Positions 10,817 to 40,135 of a stretch of 40,402 bases of DNA are shown one piece after another (positions within the stretch are counted from its first letter, which is position 1; every line of letters begins with the position of its first letter). The position numbers were made by a program, and so were the translations under genes. Origin of the DNA: a virus; IMG/VR virus record IMGVR_UViG_3300043399_000267, positions 1 through 40,402 of that record, one strand, 5' to 3'. The notes below the pieces were generated by a model. The model was not told where the DNA came from. It searched no databases and saw only the letters and a program-made list of their open reading frames with translations.

Positions 10817-11341
10817 ATGAACAACAACATTGTCACCATCAAGAAGGGCACACATGCCCCGCTTCGCTTTCCGAAATTTGTAAAACGGGAAGACCCCCTT
10901 CGGTTTCGCGTCATGTTCACCCCGTCTTGCCGGTACACCCTGGACAACGGCGATCAAAACGACGTGAACAAATTATTCGGGATCGGGTATTATCCTTGGC
11001 ACCGCGTCAATTCCGTTCGGTTCGGATGGCGGTACGACCCCAAAGTGGATATGATTGAAATCTTGTGTTACTTCCGGGCCAAAGGTAAAATCAAATTTTT
11101 CCCGATGTGTTTTGTGAAATGCGATCATTGGTATCAAATGGAAATATACCGAACCGAATTTGGTTTAGAAACTTACAAGTTCACTATTGATGGCGGGAAC
11201 ATTCCCGGGCATGGTCAATACTACTTTACAAAGTCATTTTTGTTCCGGCCGTCCCCACGGTTTGGGTACCTTTTGCGCCCGTATTTTGGCGGGAATCAAA
11301 CGGCCCCCCATGACATGACAATCCACATGGAACGCCTTTAA
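10817..11341 (+). CDS. Hypothetical beta-rich protein, widespread Bacteroidota type
   Basis: A 174-residue protein with features of a hypothetical family seen across Bacteroidota: DVNKLFGIGYYPWHRVNS, SVRFGWRYDP, and an alternating strand pattern that suggests a jelly-roll or lectin-like fold. It has no signal peptide. It stands between the early operon hairpin and the terminase genes, a common place for accessory genes. Possible roles include host conversion or phage-host interaction, but no function can be claimed. Confidence 0.7.
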   Translation: MNNNIVTIKKGTHAPLRFPKFVKREDPLRFRVMFTPSCRYTLDNGDQNDVNKLFGIGYYPWHRVNSVRFGWRYDPKVDMIEILCYFRAKGKIKFFPMCFVKCDHWYQMEIYRTEFGLETYKFTIDGGNIPGHGQYYFTKSFLFRPSPRFGYLLRPYFGGNQTAPHDMTIHMERL

Positions 11342-23579: not shown

Positions 23580-24578
23580 ATGTCGTTGATTATTAATGAT
23601 ACGCAATACGTCGGTACGTTCGCGTCGTACTTTTGGCTTCCGGCCACTTTCGGCATGGATACAATCCAAAAAGGGGCCGTTTATGTAAAGGATGGCATCA
23701 AGAAGAAGCACACGATCGGCCGAATCGACCTTTCCAATCCGCTTCAAGTTCGCACCCCAACCCCGACGAGCAATGCCAACAACGGTAAATTCACCATTGA
23801 TGGCCGTAGTTTGGAACCGCAAGACCACATGTTTTACACGGAGTTCAACCCCCGTGATTTCGAAGAACATTGGTTAGCCGAGCAACTTTCCCCAACCCTT
23901 TTGGCCCGTGAACTTCCGGTAACCGCCGAAAACTACATGATGCAAATTGCGTTGAACCGCACATTTGAAGTCATTGAACAAGAAATTTGGATGGGTTCGA
24001 CCACTTACAATGCCACCCCCGGTGATCCCGGAAACGGACAATTGATGTTCATGGACGGCTTTTTGAAAAAGATGGTCAATGATTCCGACGTTGTGCAAAT
24101 TGCCAACCCGGTTGCACTTACCGCCGGCAACATCCTTGACAAGTTGGATTTACTTATCGCTTCGGTTGCCACCAACAAAAAAGCCCTTCTTTCCCGCCCG
24201 ACCCGTTACGAAAGAATGAAGTTTTTCGTTTCCATCGAAACCGAACAACTTTACCAAACGGCGTTGACCACCGGTGTAACCTTCAAAGGTTTGAACACTA
24301 TGGACCGCGGAATCAAGCCTTGGAAAGGTTACGAAGTCGTACCCCTTGCCGGCTTCCCCGATGATACCATCTTGTTTTGCGAAGGTATCCCCGACACTTC
24401 GTCCAACCTTTACGTTGGTATGAATAGCACGGAAGACAACAATCTTCAATTGATGCGTCTTCAAAACAATTCCGAATTGTTCTTCCTGAAAGGGTTGATG
24501 AAGTTCGATACCCAATACGGATTTTCGAACCAAGTGTTCCTTTACACGACACTTACCCCCGGATATTTCAACGCATAA
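23580..24578 (+). CDS. Major capsid protein
   Basis: The 332-residue product follows the protease-scaffold gene directly, the normal place for the capsid protein, and has a length usual for HK97-fold subunits. Visible features are a short N terminus, an acidic E-loop-like segment (DFEEHWLAEQLSPTLL), and beta-rich central and C-terminal parts (PWKGYEVVPLAGFPDDTILF, QYGFSNQVFLYTTL). Codon use is strongly biased to GAA, CAA, CTT and TTG, as expected of a very highly expressed gene. A stable hairpin follows it. Confidence 0.88.
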   Translation: MSLIINDTQYVGTFASYFWLPATFGMDTIQKGAVYVKDGIKKKHTIGRIDLSNPLQVRTPTPTSNANNGKFTIDGRSLEPQDHMFYTEFNPRDFEEHWLAEQLSPTLLARELPVTAENYMMQIALNRTFEVIEQEIWMGSTTYNATPGDPGNGQLMFMDGFLKKMVNDSDVVQIANPVALTAGNILDKLDLLIASVATNKKALLSRPTRYERMKFFVSIETEQLYQTALTTGVTFKGLNTMDRGIKPWKGYEVVPLAGFPDDTILFCEGIPDTSSNLYVGMNSTEDNNLQLMRLQNNSELFFLKGLMKFDTQYGFSNQVFLYTTLTPGYFNA

Positions 24579-24634: not shown

Positions 24635-25066
24635 ATGAAAAATTTCATTTTTGCCCTTTTCGCCCTTGTTTTTTGCGCCGCAAGCGTAAACGCACAAAGC
24701 ACGTCCCCGCGTTTTGGTACGACCAAAAGCACCGACAACACCGGCCGCGTCTTGACCTTCAAACTTGTAAGCGTTACCGATGCCGCCGGCGCGGATAGCG
24801 TAACGATCGCACCGAACGCATGGGAAACAATCTACAAGGTTGCCGCCCTTGATTCCATCACCTTCAAAAGCCCGTCCGTAACGAATAGTTATTACGGCGA
24901 CCAAGTGACGCTTCAAGTGACCGGCACTTCCGGGGATCTTGTAAAGTTCACCGGCACCAATTGGGTATCCGCCGGCACCGCCACACTTTCAAGCGGGTTG
25001 AATGCGATCATAACTTTTCGTTTCAACGGCACGAAGTGGGTTGAACAAAGCCGCGTCGTACTTTAA
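24635..25066 (+). CDS. Secreted beta-rich protein following the capsid gene
   Basis: A 143-residue protein with a clear Sec signal peptide (residues 1-20, MKNFIFALFALVFCAASVNA, cut before Gln21). The mature ~123 residues are beta-rich (FTGTNWVSAGTATLSSG, IITFRFNGTKWVEQSR). Proteins in this slot often decorate capsids, but an exported protein could not do so in the cytoplasm. It may instead change the host envelope, or coat particles on release. I do not recognise a family. It lies between capsid and sheath genes with phage-typical codon use. Confidence 0.78.
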   Translation: MKNFIFALFALVFCAASVNAQSTSPRFGTTKSTDNTGRVLTFKLVSVTDAAGADSVTIAPNAWETIYKVAALDSITFKSPSVTNSYYGDQVTLQVTGTSGDLVKFTGTNWVSAGTATLSSGLNAIITFRFNGTKWVEQSRVVL

Positions 25067-25347: not shown

Positions 25348-26877
25348 ATGGCACTCAATAACATAACATTCAATCTTGGACAAGGCGGCCTTGGCCGACC
25401 CTTGGCCGGTGAAGATCATATTTCCGGTCTTGTGTTTTACACGGCGGGCAACCTTCCCGCCGGGTTTACCGTGTCCAACCGGATCAAGCAATTTTTCAGC
25501 CTTGCCGACGCGGAAGCGGCCGGCATCGTCAACACCTTCGCCGATGAAACCAAGGCGACGGCATCGTACTTGGTTACGGCCGTCGGTGCCAATGGTGACA
25601 CGGTGGAATTGAAAGTCGCGGAATACCTTGGCCGCACCGTTTCCCTTGGAGTTTACACCAAAGTTTCAACGGATTCAACCGCCGCCAACGTGGCAACGGC
25701 CATCGCGGCATTGATCAACGCCGGGACCAACACCCACGGTTATACCGCAACGGTCAACACCGCCACGGTGACAATCACGGCACGCCCCGGAATGGGCGTG
25801 TACTTGAACACCGGAAGCCCCTTGACCGCGACGTATAGCGCGGGCGCAACACTTGCGGGCACCGTCACCCAATTCACCGGTGGCGTGGCATCCAAGTACG
25901 CCGTTTGGCATTATCACATATCGGAATACTTCCGTTTGCAGCCCCAAGGCAACGTTTACGTCGGTATTTTCGCGGTGCCCAACCCGTACACGTTCACGGA
26001 AATAACGACCATGCAATCCTTCGCCAATGGCAAGATCCGGCAAATCGGCATCTTCAAGGATAGCGCGGCCTTTGCAAGTGCGGACATCACGGCCATACAT
26101 GGAGTATGTGCGGCCAACGTATCGGCACACAAAGAATTGATCGCCCTTTACGGTGCGGACATTTCCGGAACGGCCGATGTGTCAACCCTTGCCGACCTTT
26201 CCGCCCTTTCCGCCAATTATTGCACGGCGATAATCGCGCAAGATGGCGGGGCACGCGGTGCGTCCTTGTTCTATGCTTCCGGAAAGTCGGTCACAACCCT
26301 TGGTGCGACACTTGGTGCCGTGGCAAAGGCGAAAGTTTCCCATTCGATTGCATGGGTGGCGCAATTCAACATTTCGAACGGTACGGAATGCGACGTGTTG
26401 GCCTTCGCCAATGGCGTCCTTTTCTCACATAGTAGCGTCACGGATTCTTTGCTTTCCACGTTGCAAGATCGCCGGTACCTTTTCCTTCGCAAGTTCGTTG
26501 GAATCGCCGGTTCGTACTTCAACGAAAACCCGACAAGCATTGCCCTAAATTCCGATTACGCGTACATCACCGACAACCGGACCATGCAAAAGGCGACCCG
26601 GGGAATTTATACGGCCGTTCTTCCGGCCCTAAATTCGCCGATCACCTTAAACGCGGACGGTACTTTGTCGGATGAAGCCGTCGCCTATTTTGAAGGGTTG
26701 GCCGAAGGTCCGCTTTTCGAAATGGTCCGCAATGGTGAATTGTCCGGGTTTGACGTAAGCGTCAACACGCAACAAAACGTCCTTTCGACCGGTATTTTGG
26801 TCATCAACGTCACGTTGGTACAAATTGCCACCGGACGGAATATCACCGTAAACATCGGTTACAACGTAACGATATAA
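25348..26877 (+). CDS. Contractile tail sheath protein
   Basis: A 509-residue protein of normal sheath length. Its N-terminal part (ITFNLGQGGLGRPLAGED) and long beta-rich middle are followed by the conserved C-terminal domain (LPALNSPITLNADGTLSDEA, then VNTQQNVLSTGILVINVTLV), which builds the sheath lattice. The tube, chaperone and tape measure genes follow in canonical order, fixing the identity. Resembles DUF2586-type sheaths. This gene makes the phage a myovirus. Confidence 0.87.
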   Translation: MALNNITFNLGQGGLGRPLAGEDHISGLVFYTAGNLPAGFTVSNRIKQFFSLADAEAAGIVNTFADETKATASYLVTAVGANGDTVELKVAEYLGRTVSLGVYTKVSTDSTAANVATAIAALINAGTNTHGYTATVNTATVTITARPGMGVYLNTGSPLTATYSAGATLAGTVTQFTGGVASKYAVWHYHISEYFRLQPQGNVYVGIFAVPNPYTFTEITTMQSFANGKIRQIGIFKDSAAFASADITAIHGVCAANVSAHKELIALYGADISGTADVSTLADLSALSANYCTAIIAQDGGARGASLFYASGKSVTTLGATLGAVAKAKVSHSIAWVAQFNISNGTECDVLAFANGVLFSHSSVTDSLLSTLQDRRYLFLRKFVGIAGSYFNENPTSIALNSDYAYITDNRTMQKATRGIYTAVLPALNSPITLNADGTLSDEAVAYFEGLAEGPLFEMVRNGELSGFDVSVNTQQNVLSTGILVINVTLVQIATGRNITVNIGYNVTI

Positions 26878-29503: not shown

Positions 29504-30114
29504 TCTATCAACCCGATAAACCATACATAATTGCGGCCGTCCCGTTGACGGCCTTAATCCGTACATACAATCTTGCCGCCATCCCCGCAATGACGGTTCG
29601 TGACAACCCGTATGAAGGCAAGGTCAAGCAAGAAGTCACCCGGGATCCGGAACTTTACAAATCGGCATTGGGGACCCCCGTGGTCATCGATGTTACTTTC
29701 CGGTCGGTCACGTACACCGATTTCGTGCAAAACCGGCAAATCACAACCGATCAAGTACGTCTTGAAACGGTCCTTTGCACGGTGTCCCGCCCCACGATCA
29801 TTGTGAAGACACAAATTCAAGGGCGCAACGGTACGGTCAAAGAATACATTTCCAAGGACGACTTCCAAGTGACGATCAACGGCATCATCGCCGGCCAAAA
29901 CGGTCAATACCCGGCGGCCGAAGCCCTTGCCGTGCAACGGATGGCCGAAGCCCCGGTTGCCATCCCCGTCGTGTCGCGATTCTTGAACGGTATGGGGATA
30001 TACAATATCGTCGTGGAAGATTATTCCATGCCGCAAAACGCCGGCGGCATAAGTCGGCAAGATTTCACTATTAACGCGATAAGCGACGAACCCTTGGAAT
30101 TGCAAATTCAATAA
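29500..30114 (+). CDS. Baseplate protein, DUF6046-like
   Basis: A 204-residue beta-rich protein (TYNLAAIPAMTVRDNPYEG, RDPELYKSALGTPVVIDVTF, GMGIYNIVVEDYSMPQ) that fits the protein usually found between tape measure and hub in Bacteroidota contractile phages. It probably forms the tail-tube end or central hub cap. ATGA overlap with the tape measure and TAATG overlap with the hub gene show tight coupling. Function is inferred from order. Confidence 0.68.
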   Translation: MIYQPDKPYIIAAVPLTALIRTYNLAAIPAMTVRDNPYEGKVKQEVTRDPELYKSALGTPVVIDVTFRSVTYTDFVQNRQITTDQVRLETVLCTVSRPTIIVKTQIQGRNGTVKEYISKDDFQVTINGIIAGQNGQYPAAEALAVQRMAEAPVAIPVVSRFLNGMGIYNIVVEDYSMPQNAGGISRQDFTINAISDEPLELQIQ

Positions 30115-31349
30115 TGTACCGCGTTCTTACCGAAATAACCTTCACCCAACAACCGACCAAGGATTACCCGGGTCGAAACGGGGTCATCGTTTACAAGTTT
30201 TGCAACGGGTTTGAACTCAATAGTAGTTGGCAAAACTTGACCGACGCGGGATCCGTCACGCTTCCAAAAAACGTGTACGTCACGGACAAAACCGGCCGCC
30301 GATATTCCCTTGGTGGCACGAACGTAAACCTTGGCGGGTTTTCCGAAACCGTGCCCACGTTTCTTTTGGGCGACAAGGTGACGATCAAATGGGGATATGC
30401 CCGATATGATGAACGGGGCAACGAAGTAAGCCCCTTGCAAACGATATTCGAAGGGTACGTTTCGTCGGTGACATCAAAGAAGCCGTTTGTCTTGGAAGTC
30501 CAAGACAACATGTACGCCTTGAAACTACATCAAGCCACGGGCGGGAAAAACGGGTTCTTCGCCGGATCCAAATACACGCTTCAATCGATGTTGGAAGAAA
30601 TGATCGGCAAAGCCGGTCTTCCCTTTACGGTCAACAAGAAGGCCAAAACAACGATTGGTGATTTCTTCGTTCAAAACGAAACGATCGCCGAAGTGTTGGC
30701 CCGTCTTCGAAAGGATTACCACTTCGAAGCCTTCTTCCGGGGAAATGAATTGCGTTGCGGATCCTTCAAGTACGACGAAGATGAAGCCATCGCCGCCGGC
30801 CGAAAGGTTTTCAAGTTCCAACAAAACATCATTTCCGACAATTTGGAGTATAAACGGAAGGATGACACCGTATTATCGGCCGTTGCGACTTCAACCATTG
30901 AACAAAACACCGGGAAAACGACAAAGGACGGCCACGCGAAGACAAAAAAGGTTCGATTGGAAGTCCTTGTCACCTTCCGCAATGCTTCCGCCACGCCGGA
31001 TGTGGTCATCGGGACCAAGAACAAGCCATTGCCCGAAAATACCGGCGGCGAACGGCGGTCGTTGAACTTCTTGAACGTTAAAACAACATCGGAACTTGCG
31101 GAACTTGCCGCCAATGAACTTCGGAAATATTATTACAACGGGTTCAAGGGCAAGTTTGTGACGTTCGGCATCCCATACGTCAAGCACGGTGACAATGTTG
31201 ACATCCTTGACACGGTTCTTCCGGAACGAAACGGCCGGTACAAGGTCCGGGGCGTACAATACACCGGCGGGATCGGCGGTCTTCGCCAAGAAATCGAACT
31301 TGATTATTTGATCACCCGTCTTGATCCGGACGGTAAACCAATCAATTGA
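30114..31349 (+). CDS. Baseplate hub protein (gpD/Mu gp44-like)
   Basis: A 411-residue protein with the organisation of phage late-control D/gp27-type hubs: beta barrel N-terminal part (KVTIKWGYARYDERGNEV), a middle domain (AGSKYTLQSMLEEMIGKAGL, IAEVLARLRKDYHFEAFF), and a C-terminal barrel (YVKHGDNVDILDTVLPERNG). The hub ends the tail tube and holds the spike, which is encoded next. The stop overlaps the spike ATG. Length is normal. Confidence 0.85.
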   Translation: MYRVLTEITFTQQPTKDYPGRNGVIVYKFCNGFELNSSWQNLTDAGSVTLPKNVYVTDKTGRRYSLGGTNVNLGGFSETVPTFLLGDKVTIKWGYARYDERGNEVSPLQTIFEGYVSSVTSKKPFVLEVQDNMYALKLHQATGGKNGFFAGSKYTLQSMLEEMIGKAGLPFTVNKKAKTTIGDFFVQNETIAEVLARLRKDYHFEAFFRGNELRCGSFKYDEDEAIAAGRKVFKFQQNIISDNLEYKRKDDTVLSAVATSTIEQNTGKTTKDGHAKTKKVRLEVLVTFRNASATPDVVIGTKNKPLPENTGGERRSLNFLNVKTTSELAELAANELRKYYYNGFKGKFVTFGIPYVKHGDNVDILDTVLPERNGRYKVRGVQYTGGIGGLRQEIELDYLITRLDPDGKPIN

Positions 31350-31972: not shown

Positions 31973-32280
31973 ATCAAGATTTTGCGCTTCAAGATAATGA
32001 CTTGTATATCGTTGACGGGGATTTTGCCATCGCCGAAAGCGACACGCAACATATTGCGGATACCATCAATTCCTTCCCCGGATGGTGGAAGGAATACCCA
32101 CAAGATGGCGTTGGCGTCTTTGCTTATTTGAATAGCGCGGGCGAAGAACAAGCCTTGAAGCGTTCCATTCAAATACAATTGACTTCGGACGGATACAAAG
32201 TCACCAATCCAATTGTCACGGTAAGTGCCGGCGGACAAATCACCGTAAACCCGAACGCCGTACCCAATGAGAACATTTAA
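31969..32280 (+). CDS. Gp25-like baseplate wedge protein
   Basis: A 103-residue protein of standard gp25/gpW length. The IADTINSFPGWWKEYPQDGV pattern, followed by ALKRSIQIQLTSDGYKV and a beta-hairpin, is characteristic. Gp25 starts sheath assembly on the baseplate. The next gene overlaps by 14 bases. In P2 and Mu the J gene follows; here J is far upstream. Confidence 0.85.
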   Translation: MNQDFALQDNDLYIVDGDFAIAESDTQHIADTINSFPGWWKEYPQDGVGVFAYLNSAGEEQALKRSIQIQLTSDGYKVTNPIVTVSAGGQITVNPNAVPNENI

Positions 32281-32860
32281 CGCCATTGCCGGGCAATCCA
32301 TATACGACGTATGCCTTCAAACTTACGGGTCACTTGATTACCTTTTCAAGTTGATGCAAGATAACGGCATCACCGGCCTAAATGAAAACGTCGTAAGCCG
32401 GCAACCCTTTGTGTGGGATGATTCCCTTGTATTGGACCAAGTGCAAAACGCGGCCTTTGCGGCATCGAAAGTGTATTATTCAACCGACATGTCGTACTTG
32501 GGGAACGTTTATTACACGGTTCAACGCGGGCCGATTTCCAACATCCCCAACGTACCGTCAACACCTTATTCACCAAACACGCCGGGTCCGAATTCATATA
32601 TTGTGACACTCAATACAACTTGGACAAGCGGTGCCGACGGTACAACCGTTATCACGCCGCTTGACATCAACAACAATTCACTTGCCGGGTGTGACATTAT
32701 CCAAATCGAACTTGAAATAAAACCATTGATCCCGGAAGGGCAAGTCGGGGCGCAATACGTGTGGAACAAAACGCTTGGCGTTCTTACTCTTACGAACAAC
32801 ACTTACGCGGATTTCGGGCAAACATTGTCCATCCTTTACAACAAACTTGTCAACGCATGA
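32267..32860 (+). CDS. LysM-like tail protein
   Basis: A 197-residue protein whose first ~50 residues (TFNAIAGQSIYDVCLQTYG, YLFKLMQDNGITGLNENV) follow the tail-protein X/LysM pattern. The rest is beta-rich with a proline- and asparagine-rich linker (VPSTPYSPNTPGPNS) and a C-terminal domain. LysM units bind peptidoglycan or hold baseplate parts. It overlaps the fibre gene as ATGA. The C-terminal domain is unidentified. Confidence 0.72.
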   Translation: MRTFNAIAGQSIYDVCLQTYGSLDYLFKLMQDNGITGLNENVVSRQPFVWDDSLVLDQVQNAAFAASKVYYSTDMSYLGNVYYTVQRGPISNIPNVPSTPYSPNTPGPNSYIVTLNTTWTSGADGTTVITPLDINNNSLAGCDIIQIELEIKPLIPEGQVGAQYVWNKTLGVLTLTNNTYADFGQTLSILYNKLVNA

Positions 32861-35800
32861 AAAGACTTCTTATTGTCTTGAATTTATTGGCCATCACCTT
32901 TGGCGCAATCGCACAAAACGACACGACGCGTTATACGATGGTCAACGGATATGGCTTCACGTATAACCGGCTAAAAGCAAAAGCGGCACTTGTCATGCCC
33001 ACGGACACGGTACAAAATAAGTTGCCCGGATCCGTCGTCGTATTAAACGACACCCTTTACGTCCGCCGGGCCAACCGGTGGGAAGCCGTTTCGGGTGGCG
33101 GTGTTGGGATTCCTTCCGGGGGAACGACGGGACAAATACTTGCCAAGGATAGTGACACAAATTTTGACGTGTCTTGGATCGACAATTATACCGATGACGT
33201 CCGGGAAACCGTTAAGGCGTCCCAATCCATCAACAAGGGGCAAGCGGTGTATGTAAGCGGCGCGGACGGGGCCAACGTAATCGTGTCCAAGGCGTCCAAT
33301 ATGTCCGAATCAACATCAAGTAAAACCCTTGGTTTGCTTTATCAAAACCTTGCAACAAATGGACAAGGTTTTGTGATCATTCAAGGCCGCCTTTCGGGGC
33401 TGAACACCATAGGTGCCACCGCCGGGGATCCGGTATGGTTAGGCACGGACGGAAACCTTTTGTATGGCATGGCCAACAAGCCCGTCGCCCCGGCCCACAT
33501 GGTTTATTTGGGGGTTGTTACCCGTGTAAATTCCAACAATGGTGAAATTTTTGTGCATGTCCAAAACGGGTTTGAAATCCAAGAACTTCACAACGTATTG
33601 ATAACCGATAGCACCAACAACCAATTGTTGGCATACGATAGTACGACCCGTCTTTGGAAAAACAAAACCATTGCCACGGTCCTTGGGTACACCCCGGTCA
33701 AGACAACGGACACGGCCGCCATGCTCGACCCGTACTTGCGGGAAGCGGACACGGCCGCACTTTCGGCCCGCATTGATCAACGTGTCAAGTACACCGACAC
33801 GTCGGCCATGCTTGTCCCCTTTGCCCGTGACACCGGTGTTGTGCATAAGGCCGGGACGGAAACGATCACGGGTGCCAAAACATTCATTTCCCCGGTACAA
33901 ATTGGCACGACCAATCTTGGTCAATTGCTAACTTTTACCAATTACGGCAATTATGCAATGGGTGTTCAATCCGGACAACTTCAACTTATTGTGCCGGGAA
34001 TAGCGCAAAAAATATCATTGGGGTATGGTTCGTCCGGATCATTTACGCCATTGTTTGAAGTACGTGATTCCGACATTGTGGCGTACCGGAAACTTCGACT
34101 TTTTGACATGATGCAAAGCGACGTATCCACGTCAAATTGGGCGGATCCAACGGCGGCCGGTGGCACCGGTCAATTGTTTTCATACTTCCCCAATGCAACA
34201 AATAATTTCGGCCAAGGTATCGCGGCCGTTGCCGGCACCAAATATGACGCGTGGTACCAAGTCGGCGCGTTGAACGGTGGGGGCTTCCGTTTTTACCGGG
34301 GCACGACCGAACTTATGCGGGTGACGGATTCCACCAAGATTGCAAGCCTTGCCGGATCCGGGACACGAATGGTGACGGCAAGTGCAACCGGGGTATTGTC
34401 CGCAACGTCGGCCGTTCCTCCAAGCGGATCCGGGACGTTGAATTATATTCCCAAGTGGACGCCCAACGGTACGACGCTTGGAAATTCATTGTTGTTTGAT
34501 GGCGGCACTTACGTTGGCCTTGGCACCGCGTCACCTTCGGCACGGTTTGACATGCGTGGACCGTCCACGGATATTGGGATCCGTTACATTGAAACAACCA
34601 CGGGCAACACAAATCAAATCCAATTAGGGGCCGAATCCGGGGTGGGATATATTGAAGCCACGGCCGGGGTCGGTTCGCCAATTATGTCCATGCGTGTTGC
34701 CGGATCCGAACGGATGCGGATTTATTCAACCGGAAATGTGTTTGTCGGATCGTCACCTTCCGACGCGGGATACAAACTTGATGTGAATGGAACGGCAAGG
34801 TTTCAAGGCACAATTTACACAAGGGCCGGAACCGATGTTGGTATTCAAATGGTAAACACGTCCGCCATCCGAAACGCGGGAACGCAATATTTTGATTTTG
34901 GAGCGGGTGGAACCGGTGATTTTTATTTGCGCGGCGGGTCAAGCCTTTTGAATTATTTGAGCATATTAAATAATGGAAATGTAGGCATAGGCACGGCATC
35001 CCCAAATTATAAATTTGTAGTTGAAGGTTCCGGTTTCCCATTGGCAAGGTTTACGTCATCTTATTCAGGCGGTGGCGTTCAATATACATCCGCGCTTTTT
35101 GGGAATGTTGCAACCAATGAATCGGCGCAAATTGGATACGCATACAATAGCGGTACCCCCGCAAATTCGTTTTTCCATATTACCCCGTATGGGACATCGG
35201 AAGGAAGCACATTTTCAATAAAACCAAACGGGAACGTTGGCATTGGCTTTTCAAATCCCGGATCCAAACTTCAAGTAAACGGCGTCATTGATGCAGCCGG
35301 GGACAATGCCCCCGCAACCGGGAATGGTTTAGTTTTTGGAAGTTATGGGACCGGGGGGTACAAATGGATTCAGTCCTTTGCATCGCAACCGATACATATT
35401 AACCCGCTTGGGAATAACACAATAATAAACCCGGGGTCCGGTTTGGTCGGCGTTGGTACTACAAGTCCTTCCGAAAAACTTGACGTCAACGGTCGCGCCC
35501 GGGTTCGGACAATCGATAGCACGGCAAGCGCGATGAATGTTTTGTATGCCGACGCAACGGGCGTCATCAAGAAGGCAAGCGCAACGGCTTTCCCGGGTGG
35601 AAGCGGGACAACAAATTACATCCCGAAATGGACCGGCGCAAATACTTTGGGGAATAGTGTACTTTTTGAAAACGGCACAAGCATTGGATTGAATACATCT
35701 TCCCCATTAACTGCATCTGGATATGGTATTATGACCATTCGAAGCGGCGCAAATGGAAGTTTATTACAATTAACGGATGGGACGATTGATTACCGAATGC

Positions 35801-37944
35801 AATTAGTCAATTCTGACCCGATTGTAAAATTCGGCACTTATTCAAACCACGGCATCGAATTCATCCTGAATAATGTCCAAGCGCACAGATTTCATGCAAA
35901 CGCGCGGGTCGGCATTAATACGATTACAGATGCCGGATACCAGCTGGACGTAAACGGAACCCTCCGATCCGTCAACGGCGCAAACTTTGCGACGACTTCG
36001 GGGAATGTGGGGATAGGTACGACAAGCCCCGGATGGAAACTTACGGTCCGGGGTCCGGCAACGGATTACGCGGGCGTTTTTTATTCAAACAACGATTTCG
36101 TCGGAATTGGTCAATACAATTTGTCCGCCGGCACGATGGGCATTGAAGCCAATAGCAATTTGGCATTTTTGACCGGTGGATCAATTGAACGTATGCGGAT
36201 TACATCGGGTGGAACCGTCGGAATTGGGAACAATACATCCATCGCCGCAAATACAATTTTGCAAACCGCGCAAAGCGGGGATCAAACAATAAGATTTGCC
36301 CACACCGACAATGCCGTTGGAAGAACGGTCACTTTAAGATTGACAAACACAAACGCAAGTTATTCCGACGCGGGCGTTTACATGCAATCAATACAAGGTT
36401 CCGGGATTGACAATTATTCGATGGCTTTAGGGACCACCGGGGTCAATCAAACAACGGCGTCCGAACGCTTGCGGATCAATAATGCGGGAAACGTTGGAAT
36501 AGGTACGCAATCCCCCGCATTTAGATTGGACGTGCAAAATTTGACGGGTGGCGGATCAATGCGATTGAAAGGGGGAACCGCAAATTCGCAAGGGTCCGCA
36601 TATTTTGTTACGACGGCATCAAGCACCAATACATTGATGGCAATTGGGGACCGTGCCCCAATATTTGGCGGGAAAACCGATTCACTTGTAAGCATATACA
36701 CCGGAAGCGGGTATCCGCTTTTATTTGATGTTGGCGGAAGTGAAAAAGTGCGGATTGAATCCGGCGGAAATGTCGGCATAGGAACGACAACACCGGGTTC
36801 TTACAAATTGAATGTCGCGGGAAATATGTTTACAAGCGGTCAACTTATACTTGACGGGATAGGCCAAACCTTGTATCGCAATACAACAAATACAATCGGT
36901 TTTGATATTGGGTTATTGGGGGGATCATCCGACGCGACATCGTACATATATCAAAGGGCCAACGCGGATATGGTTTTCGGTACGAATAACGCAACCCGAA
37001 TGCGTTTGTTTGCAAACGGAAACTTGTTTGTTGGTTCGTCGCCAACCGATGCCGGTTATCGACTTGACGTAAACGGCAACACCCGCGTCACCGGCAAAAT
37101 TGACGTGACGGCCAATACTTCAATCGGGCAAAGTATCATCCGTTCCGGTACAGTTGACGTTGCGGCGCAAGTCTTCAATTCCAACGGATGGTTTTTGTAC
37201 GGTGCCGAAGGGGCGAACGGTGGGGCAATCTTCACCGGATCCACACCTTACGCGGCCGTCGCGGGAAGCGGATACAATCGCCCCTTGCAACTTGCCACCA
37301 ATAACACGGTCCGCATGGAAATTGATAGCGTGGGCCTTGTGGGCATCAATACGGTGACGCCAACGGAAAGATTGGACGTGAATGGACGCGCAAGGATCCG
37401 GACCGTGGATAGTACCGCAACGGCAACGAACATGTTGTACGTTGACAACAATGGGGTGATCAAGAAAACGGCCGTCCCGGGTTCGTCTTTGATGTTATTA
37501 ACCGACACGGTATCGGTCGCAACCGGGTTCACGGTGATACGGGATAGTGCCCGGAACAAAACCGTAAATTATGTGAACGTTACATTTGATCCGAACACCT
37601 ACGACGGGACGGCAACGGTGCAATTTGGGGTTTACCGAACAACGTCTTCATTTACAACCGGATCATGGCAAACCATCGCGACAATTCCGGCCCAATATGC
37701 CCCACAATCAACGGTCATATTTGAATTGCCGGGATATGTCCCCGCCGAAAGTTATTACACCGCCGCAATGGCGCGATTTGGTAGCGCGTCGGAATACACC
37801 GGGGCAAAGGTTGTCCGAATTGACGTAAACGGGAACGTTGATGTTCGCATCGGCACCGTAAGTGCGTCCGCCACACAAGGGGGCACAAACTACGTCCTTA
37901 TTCCAATCACCGCAACATGGAACATTTACAACATACCACTTTAA
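32857..37944 (+). CDS. Giant tail fibre/adhesin with signal peptide and VGIGT repeats
   Basis: A 1695-residue protein. Residues 1-19 form a signal peptide (MKRLLIVLNLLAITFGAIA, before Gln20). Then follow a beta region (INKGQAVYVSGADGANVIV, GDPVWLGTDGNLLYGM) common in phage fibres, many copies of GNVGIGTTSP and KLDVNG units, and a C-terminal domain (about 1550-1695) with VNYVNVTFDPNTYDGT. Repeats suggest a triple-stranded beta shaft. It starts at ATG 32857, overlapping the preceding stop, because the signal peptide begins there. Codon use changes at about 34880-36000. Either it is a virion fibre that is unusually exported, or a host-surface adhesin carried by the phage. Confidence 0.85.
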   Translation: MKRLLIVLNLLAITFGAIAQNDTTRYTMVNGYGFTYNRLKAKAALVMPTDTVQNKLPGSVVVLNDTLYVRRANRWEAVSGGGVGIPSGGTTGQILAKDSDTNFDVSWIDNYTDDVRETVKASQSINKGQAVYVSGADGANVIVSKASNMSESTSSKTLGLLYQNLATNGQGFVIIQGRLSGLNTIGATAGDPVWLGTDGNLLYGMANKPVAPAHMVYLGVVTRVNSNNGEIFVHVQNGFEIQELHNVLITDSTNNQLLAYDSTTRLWKNKTIATVLGYTPVKTTDTAAMLDPYLREADTAALSARIDQRVKYTDTSAMLVPFARDTGVVHKAGTETITGAKTFISPVQIGTTNLGQLLTFTNYGNYAMGVQSGQLQLIVPGIAQKISLGYGSSGSFTPLFEVRDSDIVAYRKLRLFDMMQSDVSTSNWADPTAAGGTGQLFSYFPNATNNFGQGIAAVAGTKYDAWYQVGALNGGGFRFYRGTTELMRVTDSTKIASLAGSGTRMVTASATGVLSATSAVPPSGSGTLNYIPKWTPNGTTLGNSLLFDGGTYVGLGTASPSARFDMRGPSTDIGIRYIETTTGNTNQIQLGAESGVGYIEATAGVGSPIMSMRVAGSERMRIYSTGNVFVGSSPSDAGYKLDVNGTARFQGTIYTRAGTDVGIQMVNTSAIRNAGTQYFDFGAGGTGDFYLRGGSSLLNYLSILNNGNVGIGTASPNYKFVVEGSGFPLARFTSSYSGGGVQYTSALFGNVATNESAQIGYAYNSGTPANSFFHITPYGTSEGSTFSIKPNGNVGIGFSNPGSKLQVNGVIDAAGDNAPATGNGLVFGSYGTGGYKWIQSFASQPIHINPLGNNTIINPGSGLVGVGTTSPSEKLDVNGRARVRTIDSTASAMNVLYADATGVIKKASATAFPGGSGTTNYIPKWTGANTLGNSVLFENGTSIGLNTSSPLTASGYGIMTIRSGANGSLLQLTDGTIDYRMQLVNSDPIVKFGTYSNHGIEFILNNVQAHRFHANARVGINTITDAGYQLDVNGTLRSVNGANFATTSGNVGIGTTSPGWKLTVRGPATDYAGVFYSNNDFVGIGQYNLSAGTMGIEANSNLAFLTGGSIERMRITSGGTVGIGNNTSIAANTILQTAQSGDQTIRFAHTDNAVGRTVTLRLTNTNASYSDAGVYMQSIQGSGIDNYSMALGTTGVNQTTASERLRINNAGNVGIGTQSPAFRLDVQNLTGGGSMRLKGGTANSQGSAYFVTTASSTNTLMAIGDRAPIFGGKTDSLVSIYTGSGYPLLFDVGGSEKVRIESGGNVGIGTTTPGSYKLNVAGNMFTSGQLILDGIGQTLYRNTTNTIGFDIGLLGGSSDATSYIYQRANADMVFGTNNATRMRLFANGNLFVGSSPTDAGYRLDVNGNTRVTGKIDVTANTSIGQSIIRSGTVDVAAQVFNSNGWFLYGAEGANGGAIFTGSTPYAAVAGSGYNRPLQLATNNTVRMEIDSVGLVGINTVTPTERLDVNGRARIRTVDSTATATNMLYVDNNGVIKKTAVPGSSLMLLTDTVSVATGFTVIRDSARNKTVNYVNVTFDPNTYDGTATVQFGVYRTTSSFTTGSWQTIATIPAQYAPQSTVIFELPGYVPAESYYTAAMARFGSASEYTGAKVVRIDVNGNVDVRIGTVSASATQGGTNYVLIPITATWNIYNIPL
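34423..34536 (+). repeat. Fibre module A, copy 1
   Basis: Encodes SGSGTLNYIPKWTPNGT followed by LGNSLLFDGG and VGLGTASP. A diverged second copy at 35602-35706 encodes SGTTNYIPKWTGANTLGNS. Confidence 0.7.
35479..35577 (+). repeat. Fibre module B, copy 1
   Basis: A 99-base unit encoding LDVNGRARVRTIDSTASAMN and following residues. The second copy at 37372-37470 has the same length and encodes LDVNGRARIRTVDSTATATN. The equal length points to intragenic duplication. Confidence 0.75.
35602..35706 (+). repeat. Fibre module A, copy 2
   Basis: Encodes SGTTNYIPKWTGANTLGNSV, then a VGLGT-like ending (SIGLNTSSP). Similar to copy 1 at 34423-34536. Confidence 0.7.
37372..37470 (+). repeat. Fibre module B, copy 2
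   Basis: 99 bases encoding LDVNGRARIRTVDSTATATN and the following NNGVIKKT, matching copy 1 at 35479-35577. Confidence 0.75.
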
Positions 37945-37960
37945 ACAAAACCAATAAGCA

Positions 37961-38383
37961 ATGAAGAAAACGATGATGACAATGATTGCCGCGCTTTTTG
38001 CGGTAATGACGATGGCACAAACGGCGGACACGACAAAACCGACACAACCGGTCCGGGAACGAAAGCCGATTCGGGAATTTAAGATTTGGAAGAACGGCCA
38101 ACAATTCGACGCGTCGGATATTGACGTCGTGTGCGTGTTCGACGATTACCGAACAACGGCCCGCGTGTATTATCAAATTTCGGATAGCCTTGGCGTGGTC
38201 GTGGCGGATGGCAACATCGACATCACCGGTGCGGAATATGAACAATACGCCCGCAAAGCCAATCATCCGGACACCGGTTTGCAATTAACGTTGAAAGCCT
38301 TGAAACTTCAAGAACGGGCGGCGGCGGCCGCACGTCAAGCGGCACGTCAAGCGGCGGCATCCGGCACAACCACCAACCAATAA
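37961..38383 (+). CDS. Secreted small protein after the fibre
   Basis: A 140-residue protein with a Sec signal peptide (residues 1-19, MKKTMMTMIAALFAVMTMA, before Gln20), a beta-rich centre (VCVFDDYRTTARVYYQIS, VVADGNIDITGAEYEQYA) and an Ala/Arg-rich helical tail (AAAAARQAARQAAASG). Located directly after the signal-bearing fibre, it could be a periplasmic chaperone or partner of that fibre. No family recognised. Confidence 0.75.
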   Translation: MKKTMMTMIAALFAVMTMAQTADTTKPTQPVRERKPIREFKIWKNGQQFDASDIDVVCVFDDYRTTARVYYQISDSLGVVVADGNIDITGAEYEQYARKANHPDTGLQLTLKALKLQERAAAAARQAARQAAASGTTTNQ

Positions 38384-38651: not shown

Positions 38652-38831
38652 ATGAAAATCAAAAGTTGGAAAACTACCCTTTCCGGCGTGGCCGTGGGCC
38701 TTATCGCCGCTGCTTCGTACTTTAATTGGATCACCTCCGATCAAGCCGTATCCATCATGTCCGTATTGACCGCCCTTGGGTTCATTGCGGCAAAAGATGC
38801 AAACGTCACGGGCGGGGACGCGAAGCAATGA
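38652..38831 (+). CDS. Holin-like protein, two membrane segments
   Basis: A 59-residue protein: a first membrane segment (TLSGVAVGLIAAASYFNWI), a short turn, a second (VSIMSVLTALGFIAAKDA) and a polar tail (NVTGGDAKQ). Small size, two segments and the ALGF-AAKDA-NVTGG ending are typical of small phage holins. It would form the pore that triggers lysis. The stop overlaps the next gene as ATGA. Confidence 0.78.
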   Translation: MKIKSWKTTLSGVAVGLIAAASYFNWITSDQAVSIMSVLTALGFIAAKDANVTGGDAKQ

Positions 38832-39358
38832 AAACGCGGATCTTAATGGCGACCGGCCTTTTGGTCGGTTGCCTTTCCCTTCTTCGGTGCAACGTTGCCA
38901 AGAAGGACCAACGCGCCCTTGAACGCGTCCAAGCCAAGCGTCCATTGGTTGACGCCATGCTTCCCGTCGTTCAAAGCCTTTACCCTTGCGTCATTGATAC
39001 CATTGCCGTCGTCATCCCCGGGGGGATCGATTCCGTGTTTTACCCGGTGCCCATTATCGACACCGTGTACGATCGCGGAAGCGGATACGCCCAAGGATTC
39101 ATTGACGGGCAAATATCAATTTCAAAAAAGAAGTATGTCCGGGATCTTCCCGATACGGTATTGAAAACCGTCATCGATCGAACCGGCATCACGACGTACC
39201 AAACACAACTTTCATACATGAAGGGTCAATTGTCCGAAAGGAATGATCGACTTAAAGAATTGCAAGGGGCGCGACGTGAACGCGATTGGACCGTTTACGG
39301 GCTTATCGCTTTACTTGTCATCACGAATGTTGGATGGGCCGTGATACGGTTCAAATAA
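38828..39358 (+). CDS. Unimolecular spanin-like lipoprotein
   Basis: A 176-residue protein with an N-terminal lipoprotein signal (MATGLLVGCLSLL; lipobox LVGC, lipidation at Cys15), a periplasmic helical/charged part (ISISKKKYVRDLPDTVL, LSYMKGQLSERNDRLKEL), and one C-terminal membrane segment (about 154-173: VYGLIALLVITNVGWAVI). An outer-membrane lipid anchor plus an inner-membrane helix is the u-spanin design, which fuses the membranes at lysis. ATGA overlap with the holin supports this. Confidence 0.75.
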   Translation: MKTRILMATGLLVGCLSLLRCNVAKKDQRALERVQAKRPLVDAMLPVVQSLYPCVIDTIAVVIPGGIDSVFYPVPIIDTVYDRGSGYAQGFIDGQISISKKKYVRDLPDTVLKTVIDRTGITTYQTQLSYMKGQLSERNDRLKELQGARRERDWTVYGLIALLVITNVGWAVIRFK

Positions 39359-39366
39359 CGCCGACC

Positions 39367-39639
39367 ATGATCACCTACATCGAAGAATTTATCAAAAAAA
39401 AGTCGATGGAACATTCACCCGAAAGAAATTACGTTTTGCTTTCGATCAACATGAACGATGTTGAAAAAAGCGAACCCATGACGTGGCAAGAAATCATGAC
39501 CCGGGCCTTTACGATTGCCGCCGATCAACCCGTCCGGTACTTCAACGTTGATTGCCGCTTGAAGGTGGCCAATTTGAAGGAAGGGACGGTCCGGTCAATT
39601 GGTATCAAGTTATTTATCAAAACACAACCCGATGGATAA
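39367..39639 (+). CDS. Hypothetical protein in the lysis cassette
   Basis: A 90-residue protein (MITYIEEFIKKKSMEHSP, TWQEIMTRAFTIAADQP), mixed alpha/beta. It lies between the spanin-like gene and the M15 peptidase and overlaps the latter by eight bases. It has no signal peptide. It may regulate lysis or endolysin activity. Function unknown. Confidence 0.7.
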   Translation: MITYIEEFIKKKSMEHSPERNYVLLSINMNDVEKSEPMTWQEIMTRAFTIAADQPVRYFNVDCRLKVANLKEGTVRSIGIKLFIKTQPDG

Positions 39640-40135
39640 AATTACACTTGAACGGATTGAAAAATTGCATCCGAAAGTACGCGACGAAGCCCGGAAGATT
39701 TACGCCGAAATATGCGAAGCCCTTTCCGGTCGCGTAATTTGCCGTTTTGCGTTCACGTTTCGGACTTTCGCCGAACAAAACGCATTGTACGCCCAAGGCC
39801 GAACGAAGCCCGGGAAGCGGGTTACTAACGCCCGCGCCGGCCTTTCATACCACAATTGGGGTTTAGCAATTGACATGGTGTTGGTACACGACACCGATCA
39901 CGACGGCGATTACGACAAAGCGGTGTGGGATGTAAAAAAAGATTTCGACGGTGACAAGGTAGCCGATTGGATGGAAGTTGTCGCCATCTTCAAACAATGG
40001 GGTTGGGAATGGGGTGGCGATTGGAAATTCAACGATCCCCCACACTTCCAAAAAACGTTCGGTTATCCGGTCCGGTCATTGTTGGCATTACACGAAAAAA
40101 AGAAGGTTGACGCGGAAGGATACGTCCGCATTTAA
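39632..40135 (+). CDS. M15-family peptidoglycan peptidase (endolysin) with EF-hand-like loops
   Basis: A 167-residue Zn-peptidase. The zinc ligands of the M15/VanY-ChiX type are His74 and Asp81 in SYHNWGLAIDM and His138 in DPPHFQ, with FTFRTFAEQNALYAQGRTKP upstream. It cuts peptide cross-links of peptidoglycan. Between Asp81 and the last ligand, residues 87-95 (DTDHDGDYD) and 104-108 (DFDGD) look like calcium-binding EF-hand loops. No signal peptide is present, so release through the holin is expected. The gene ends before two terminators. Confidence 0.9.
   Translation: MDKITLERIEKLHPKVRDEARKIYAEICEALSGRVICRFAFTFRTFAEQNALYAQGRTKPGKRVTNARAGLSYHNWGLAIDMVLVHDTDHDGDYDKAVWDVKKDFDGDKVADWMEVVAIFKQWGWEWGGDWKFNDPPHFQKTFGYPVRSLLALHEKKKVDAEGYVRI

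Follow-up and report, generated by a model that had tools for sequence, protein, structure and literature searches.

A conserved predicted signal peptide on the tail fibre of a Bacteroidota-type phage points to export together with a partner protein

Why should a phage tail-fibre gene begin with a Sec signal peptide? Tailed phages are thought to assemble in the cytoplasm, so a fibre placed in the periplasm could meet virions only at lysis. The question is raised by an IMG/VR viral record of 40,402 nucleotides (IMGVR_UViG_3300043399_000267), analysed over its whole length and hereafter called the window; its 48 genes were screened for signal peptides. An earlier note had described three apparently exported proteins in the structural region, encoded at 24635, 32857 and 37961 (genes are named by their first position), and had proposed either periplasmic or surface assembly of fibres or phage-encoded adhesins that change the lysogen.

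Gene layout and start of the fibre

Judged by its genes, the window phage is contractile-tailed and of Bacteroidota type. The virion genes identified comprised terminase, portal, minor head protein, baseplate wedge, capsid protein, sheath, tape measure and baseplate hub, followed on their 3' side by the fibre, 37961, the small membrane-type protein 38403, the lipoprotein 38828 and an M15 endolysin (Table 1). In the lipoprotein family (L002 14487 and L003 10630 in the sister phages), the first lipobox-like cysteine was absent in L003 and the second (LLRC/FIQC) was conserved in all three phages, so the lipidated residue is probably the second. The product of 453-1535 resembles a tyrosine recombinase by eye, and the phage is therefore probably temperate. 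The early half of the window also contains a 'GTHAPLR' family gene (10817-11341); in siphophages, members of this family (L098 8803; L107 9534) immediately follow the fibre partner or come one gene later.

Table 1. Features of the window discussed in the text.
Feature	Position	Strand	Remark
Major capsid protein	23580..24578	+	position and PHROG virion structural matches
Exported 143-aa protein directly 3' of the major capsid gene	24635..25066	+	model resembles phage tailspike/capsid-spike domains
Signal peptide of 24635, MKNFIFALFALVFCAASVNA↓Q	24635..24694	+	
Tail sheath	25348..26877	+	phrog_907; DUF2586
Baseplate hub	30114..31349	+	phrog_4930
Baseplate-region gene before the fibre	32267..32860	+	stop overlaps fibre start (ATGA)
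Tail fibre, 1695 aa, exported type, no Cys	32857..37944	+	PHROG tail fiber, E 6e-33
Fibre Q-rule SPI signal peptide, MKRLLIVLNLLAITFGAIA↓Q	32857..32913	+	
Mature N-terminal module (QNDTTRYTMVNGYGF...)	32914..33105	+	near-invariant across sister phages
Fibre module, residues about 84-269	33106..33663	+	common to many fibres without signal peptide
C-terminal tip	37525..37941	+	common to L002; unrelated tip instead in L003
Exported fibre partner, 37961 family, 140 aa	37961..38383	+	compartment co-varies with fibre
Partner signal peptide, MKKTMMTMIAALFAVMTMA↓Q	37961..38017	+	
Lipoprotein, C-terminal TM segment, spanin-like	38828..39358	+	lysis region
M15-type endolysin	39632..40135	+	

The fibre was found where the note had placed it, at the end of the tail and baseplate genes, with sheath, tape measure, baseplate hub and wedge all upstream. 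Homology assigned it to tail-fibre families (phrog_9942, E 6e-33; phrog_18345, E 9e-33); the window fibre gave no Pfam match, to the S74 domain or otherwise. Its N-terminus reads MKRLLIVLNLLAITFGAIAQNDTTR, and the sequence around the predicted cleavage site is MKRLLIVLNLLAITFGAIA↓QNDTTRY, matching the A/Q cleavage described before. The sister phages L002 and L003/L004 retained the fibre, and their virion proteins were mostly 75-90% identical. An in-frame GTG at 32761 might have suggested a longer product in the window, with the hydrophobic stretch arising by a misannotated start or by chance. In both L002 and L003, the fibre ATG is preceded at a distance of 4 codons by an in-frame stop, which makes a longer N-terminus impossible there; together with the conservation described below, this led us to reject that reading, whose probability we regard as negligible. 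The L002 fibre is broken by an in-frame stop (L002:9600-9900) into a 579-aa ORF followed by a 1281-aa open frame; the copies of the window and L003 are uninterrupted.

Conservation of the signal peptides

Signal peptides were called by a heuristic detector rather than SignalP. The three N-termini displayed a basic n-region, a hydrophobic core and a small-x-small cleavage site, read as AIA↓Q (32857), VNA↓Q (24635) and TMA↓Q (37961), and they were the only signal peptidase I (SPI) calls with Gln at +1 among the 48 window genes. With the lipoprotein 38828, the number of exported proteins came to four. Since the loose rule also accepted 6-17% of shuffled N-termini, a call on a single protein is weak evidence, and conservation was therefore tested.

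In each of the three families, the signal peptide was less conserved than the first 40 mature residues: identity was 0.37 vs 0.95 for the fibre, 0.29 vs 0.54 for 37961 and 0.45 vs 0.80 for 24635. Despite this drift, Gln at +1 was present in 26/26 aligned sequences from four alignments. The sister fibres start with MKKLILLVNLFAIIVSASA↓Q (L002) and MKKLIALFTVLSFTLAAIG↓Q (L003/L004), with 37-47% identity in the signal peptide vs 80-89% in residues 20-80. The N-termini of control virion genes from the same phages were conserved, and 38403 diverged equally on both sides. The conservation pattern and the invariant Gln rule out a chance origin. Gln at +1 is demanded by the Q-rule of Bacteroidetes (PMC5837995, PMC10653852) and reaches a mean of 71% per species in Bacteroidota hosts (PMC5837995). 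Collectively, these alignments indicated that the signal peptides are conserved as signals, not as sequence, in three gene families. The survey of related phages that the note had called for was thus positive for all three proteins, and we consider it very probable, on sequence grounds, that the fibre is exported from the cytoplasm.

The signal peptide of 24635 was retained in L114, L115 and the distant L117. A model of the mature protein, built from four sequences and of moderate confidence (pLDDT 73), matched the N-terminal/head domains of CBA120 TSP4 (E 5e-4) and the Pa223 capsid spike (E 2e-3). On this structural resemblance, it is plausible that 24635 is a capsid spike added late.

Exported fibres, partners and tips in other phages

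Within the internal module of the fibre (residues about 84-269), residues of about 85-250 were shared by 80 viral loci. Most of these fibres had a different N-terminus, without a signal peptide, so the exported N-terminus behaves as a swappable module. Further searches, for which the partner family and the new fibre N-terminus served as queries, revealed a second, siphophage-like group, in which the terminal fibre consists of a variable signal peptide followed by a near-invariant QQ[IV]N[PA]VPDYVFRNQMSVGR. These siphophage loci were gathered via A8, a tail gene two genes upstream of the fibre, which avoids choosing loci by their signal peptide. All A8-anchored loci with a readable fibre start (25/25) had a signal peptide ending in ↓Q, and many of these starts overlapped the preceding gene by ATGA. 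With a start that overlaps the tail gene before it or lies close behind, the fibre gene is arranged as in a late operon. L005 provided a further exported fibre. Another was encoded by a prophage on a 317-kb contig (G417), from a genome of the same family as a Chitinophagaceae MAG; here the gene order recurs, and the exported fibre, which has a weak GDSL/SGNH-hydrolase match below the Pfam cut-off, is followed by two large exported-type genes, a holin and a lipoprotein. The N-terminal modules of G417 and the siphophages aligned with each other; between the modules of the window group, the siphophages and L005, no relationship was detectable.

Among seven isolated Bacteroidota phages (phi14:2, phi19:2 in part, phi12:1, phi18:1, 11b, FCL-2 and B124-14), no fibre or annotated virion protein carried a signal peptide; for phi14:2 and phi18:1, proteins have been identified by mass spectrometry. 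Searches of named phages with the fibre N-terminus, the partner and 24635 returned no meaningful relative, whole-fibre searches of them returned distant fibres only, and the baseplate hub used as bait for relatives gave one weak match. Two Bacteroidota-type phages have a fibre without signal peptide (L018 928-7737; L079 11700-15326) and several other putative Q-rule exported proteins near the fibre and lysis genes.

The 37961 family is a small family located 3' of fibres. Fibre and partner both had a signal peptide in 13 lineages and both were without one in 9, partners of the latter kind starting with MKTIEAVSIWDNGT...; no mixed case occurred. This co-variation indicates that the two proteins share a compartment, although the independent events are few because the 13 and 9 lineages are related to each other. 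One exported homologue (L122 1578-1973) has no fibre gene beside it and is flanked instead by a head-morphogenesis gene and a putative capsid gene. Across 395 genomes of the class of G001, the partner family was found in the starting genome only. The AlphaFold model of 37961 (pLDDT 84) gave good BFVD matches to uncharacterised phage proteins only, and searches of PHROG, PDB sequences and PDB folds returned nothing, known chaperone families included. The natural guess is that this protein helps in assembly or attachment.

Exported fibres were also depleted in cysteine. Their mature parts contained 1 Cys in 12,716 residues vs 56 in 43,531 for fibres without signal peptide (0.08 vs 1.29 per 1000 residues), and Cys-containing proteins made up 1/16 vs 27/49. 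Including the G417 prophage fibre, which was found later and has 5 Cys, weakened the contrast to p = 0.007; as the sequences are related, these p values are indicative only. At the other end of the fibre, the tip of L003, which differs from the one shared by its sisters, was 75% identical over 137 residues to that of siphophage L128, and the tip of the exported fibre L147 was 46-62% identical to those of several fibres without signal peptide. These alignments indicate that tips are exchanged between phages, as in receptor-binding proteins.

Fate of the exported fibre

Two readings would leave the N-terminal segment without a role in export. It could remain in place and anchor the fibre to the baseplate or a membrane, an outcome against which the note had set its own interpretation; baseplate genes precede the fibre, and fibre N-termini usually bind the baseplate. 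Yet no part of the protein is less conserved than this segment: residues 1-19 are 37% identical, against 95% for the stretch that follows. In all families the segment closes with small-x-small↓Q, and segments of this type are also present on the partner and the capsid-linked protein. A divergent signal sequence before a conserved mature part, in phages whose control N-termini are conserved, fits signal peptides and not a baseplate anchor, which we consider improbable. It could instead be a functionless relic, captured with the N-terminus of a secreted host protein. The N-terminal modules of the window group, the siphophages and L005, which are not detectably related, may indeed have been acquired repeatedly. 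A working signal has nevertheless been retained through sequence drift in many lineages, and the co-variation of the partner and the low cysteine content also speak against a relic, making this reading very unlikely as well.

The main rival to a virion fibre accepts export: the protein would not be part of the virion. It would either let infected cells or lysogens adhere or, set free in soluble form at lysis, mask receptors so that progeny do not stick to debris and competitors are blocked. Parallels come from the Bdellovibrio MAT adhesins (PMC10769870; PDB 8ond, 8ojn). These relatives of phage tail fibres are long trimeric beta-helix fibres with signal peptides and are located on the surface of the predator. 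The window fibre shares the signal peptide, and its distal repeats weakly match solved MAT structures, suggesting that a fibre of such build can work after export. MAT genes differ in belonging to a predatory bacterium, outside a phage virion operon, and the S74 domain of one MAT subfamily was not found in the window fibre. Streptococcal PblA and PblB are likewise prophage tail proteins that act as surface adhesins, and one adhesion-promoting S. pneumoniae PblB has a putative signal peptide (PMC4508584); the host is Gram-positive, and the available part of that account notes no exported partner. Against this rival, exported fibres occupy the tail-fibre position in unrelated phages, and begin within the tail gene before them or right behind it; their tips are common to non-exported fibres; and elsewhere the same place is taken by a fibre without signal peptide. 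Nor did Pfam detect, in the window, L107 and L005 fibres, the C-terminal sorting domain with which cargo of the type IX secretion system (T9SS) passes the outer membrane. The late-operon start, the tail-fibre position in unrelated phages, the co-inherited exported partner and tip exchange favour a virion fibre over a lysogen surface protein. Of the two interpretations in the note, extracytoplasmic assembly therefore fits better than the lysogen adhesin; the adhesin or mask is the less probable reading, although one to be taken seriously.

We hypothesize that the protein is a receptor-binding tail fibre, made late with the virion genes and exported by the host Sec system. Signal peptidase I would cut it at A19↓Q20, and the new N-terminal Gln would be expected to be capped as pyroglutamate under the Bacteroidota Q-rule. 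The partner 37961 and the capsid-linked, spike-like 24635 would take the same route; all three would wait folded in the periplasm and bind the heads and tails of virions once lysis breaks the inner membrane and wall. Cleavage and capping in the host, periplasmic folding and attachment at lysis are steps that we propose from the conserved signal peptides, the late-operon position, the shared fibre/partner compartment, the low cysteine content and tip exchange. We give even weight to the proposal that the three exported proteins join virions at lysis, and likewise see the attachment of the exported fibre itself as roughly evenly balanced.

Parts of this arrangement have precedents. Ordinary Caudoviricetes tail fibres (PHROG 9942, 18345) share the internal module, the locus and the type of partner gene with the window fibre, but fibre and partner are without signal peptide and the fibres contain more Cys. 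Phages of P. gingivalis, also a Bacteroidota host, encode SPI signal peptides with Gln at +1: five Q-rule genes of unknown function have been described (PMC10367356; again PMC10653852), as well as signal peptides on spanins and on major capsid proteins, the latter thought to be cut by the prohead protease (PMC10367356). Unlike in those phages, it is a tail fibre, its partner and a capsid-linked protein that carry Q-rule signal peptides here. Target proteins of phage DGRs are said to be without signal peptides (PMC6199706). A search of a literature collection that covers subscription journals only in part found neither an exported tail fibre in a Bacteroidota phage nor an exported fibre/partner pair. 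Tail fibres and Q-rule phage proteins are thus known, and what is unusual is the export route of the pair.

It is conceivable, at slightly less than an even chance, that some Bacteroidota tailed phages have a second, extracytoplasmic arm of assembly, in which a Sec-exported, pyroglutamate-capped fibre, partner and capsid spike are added during lysis. If fibres are exported first, particles would be without their receptor-binding part until lysis, fibres would fold in the host export pathway, and infectivity would depend on Sec, signal peptidase and glutaminyl cyclase. A fibre that stays with the cell would instead be a phage-encoded adhesin or receptor mask. The fibre/partner pair offers a sequence handle for exported fibres in uncultivated Bacteroidota phages.
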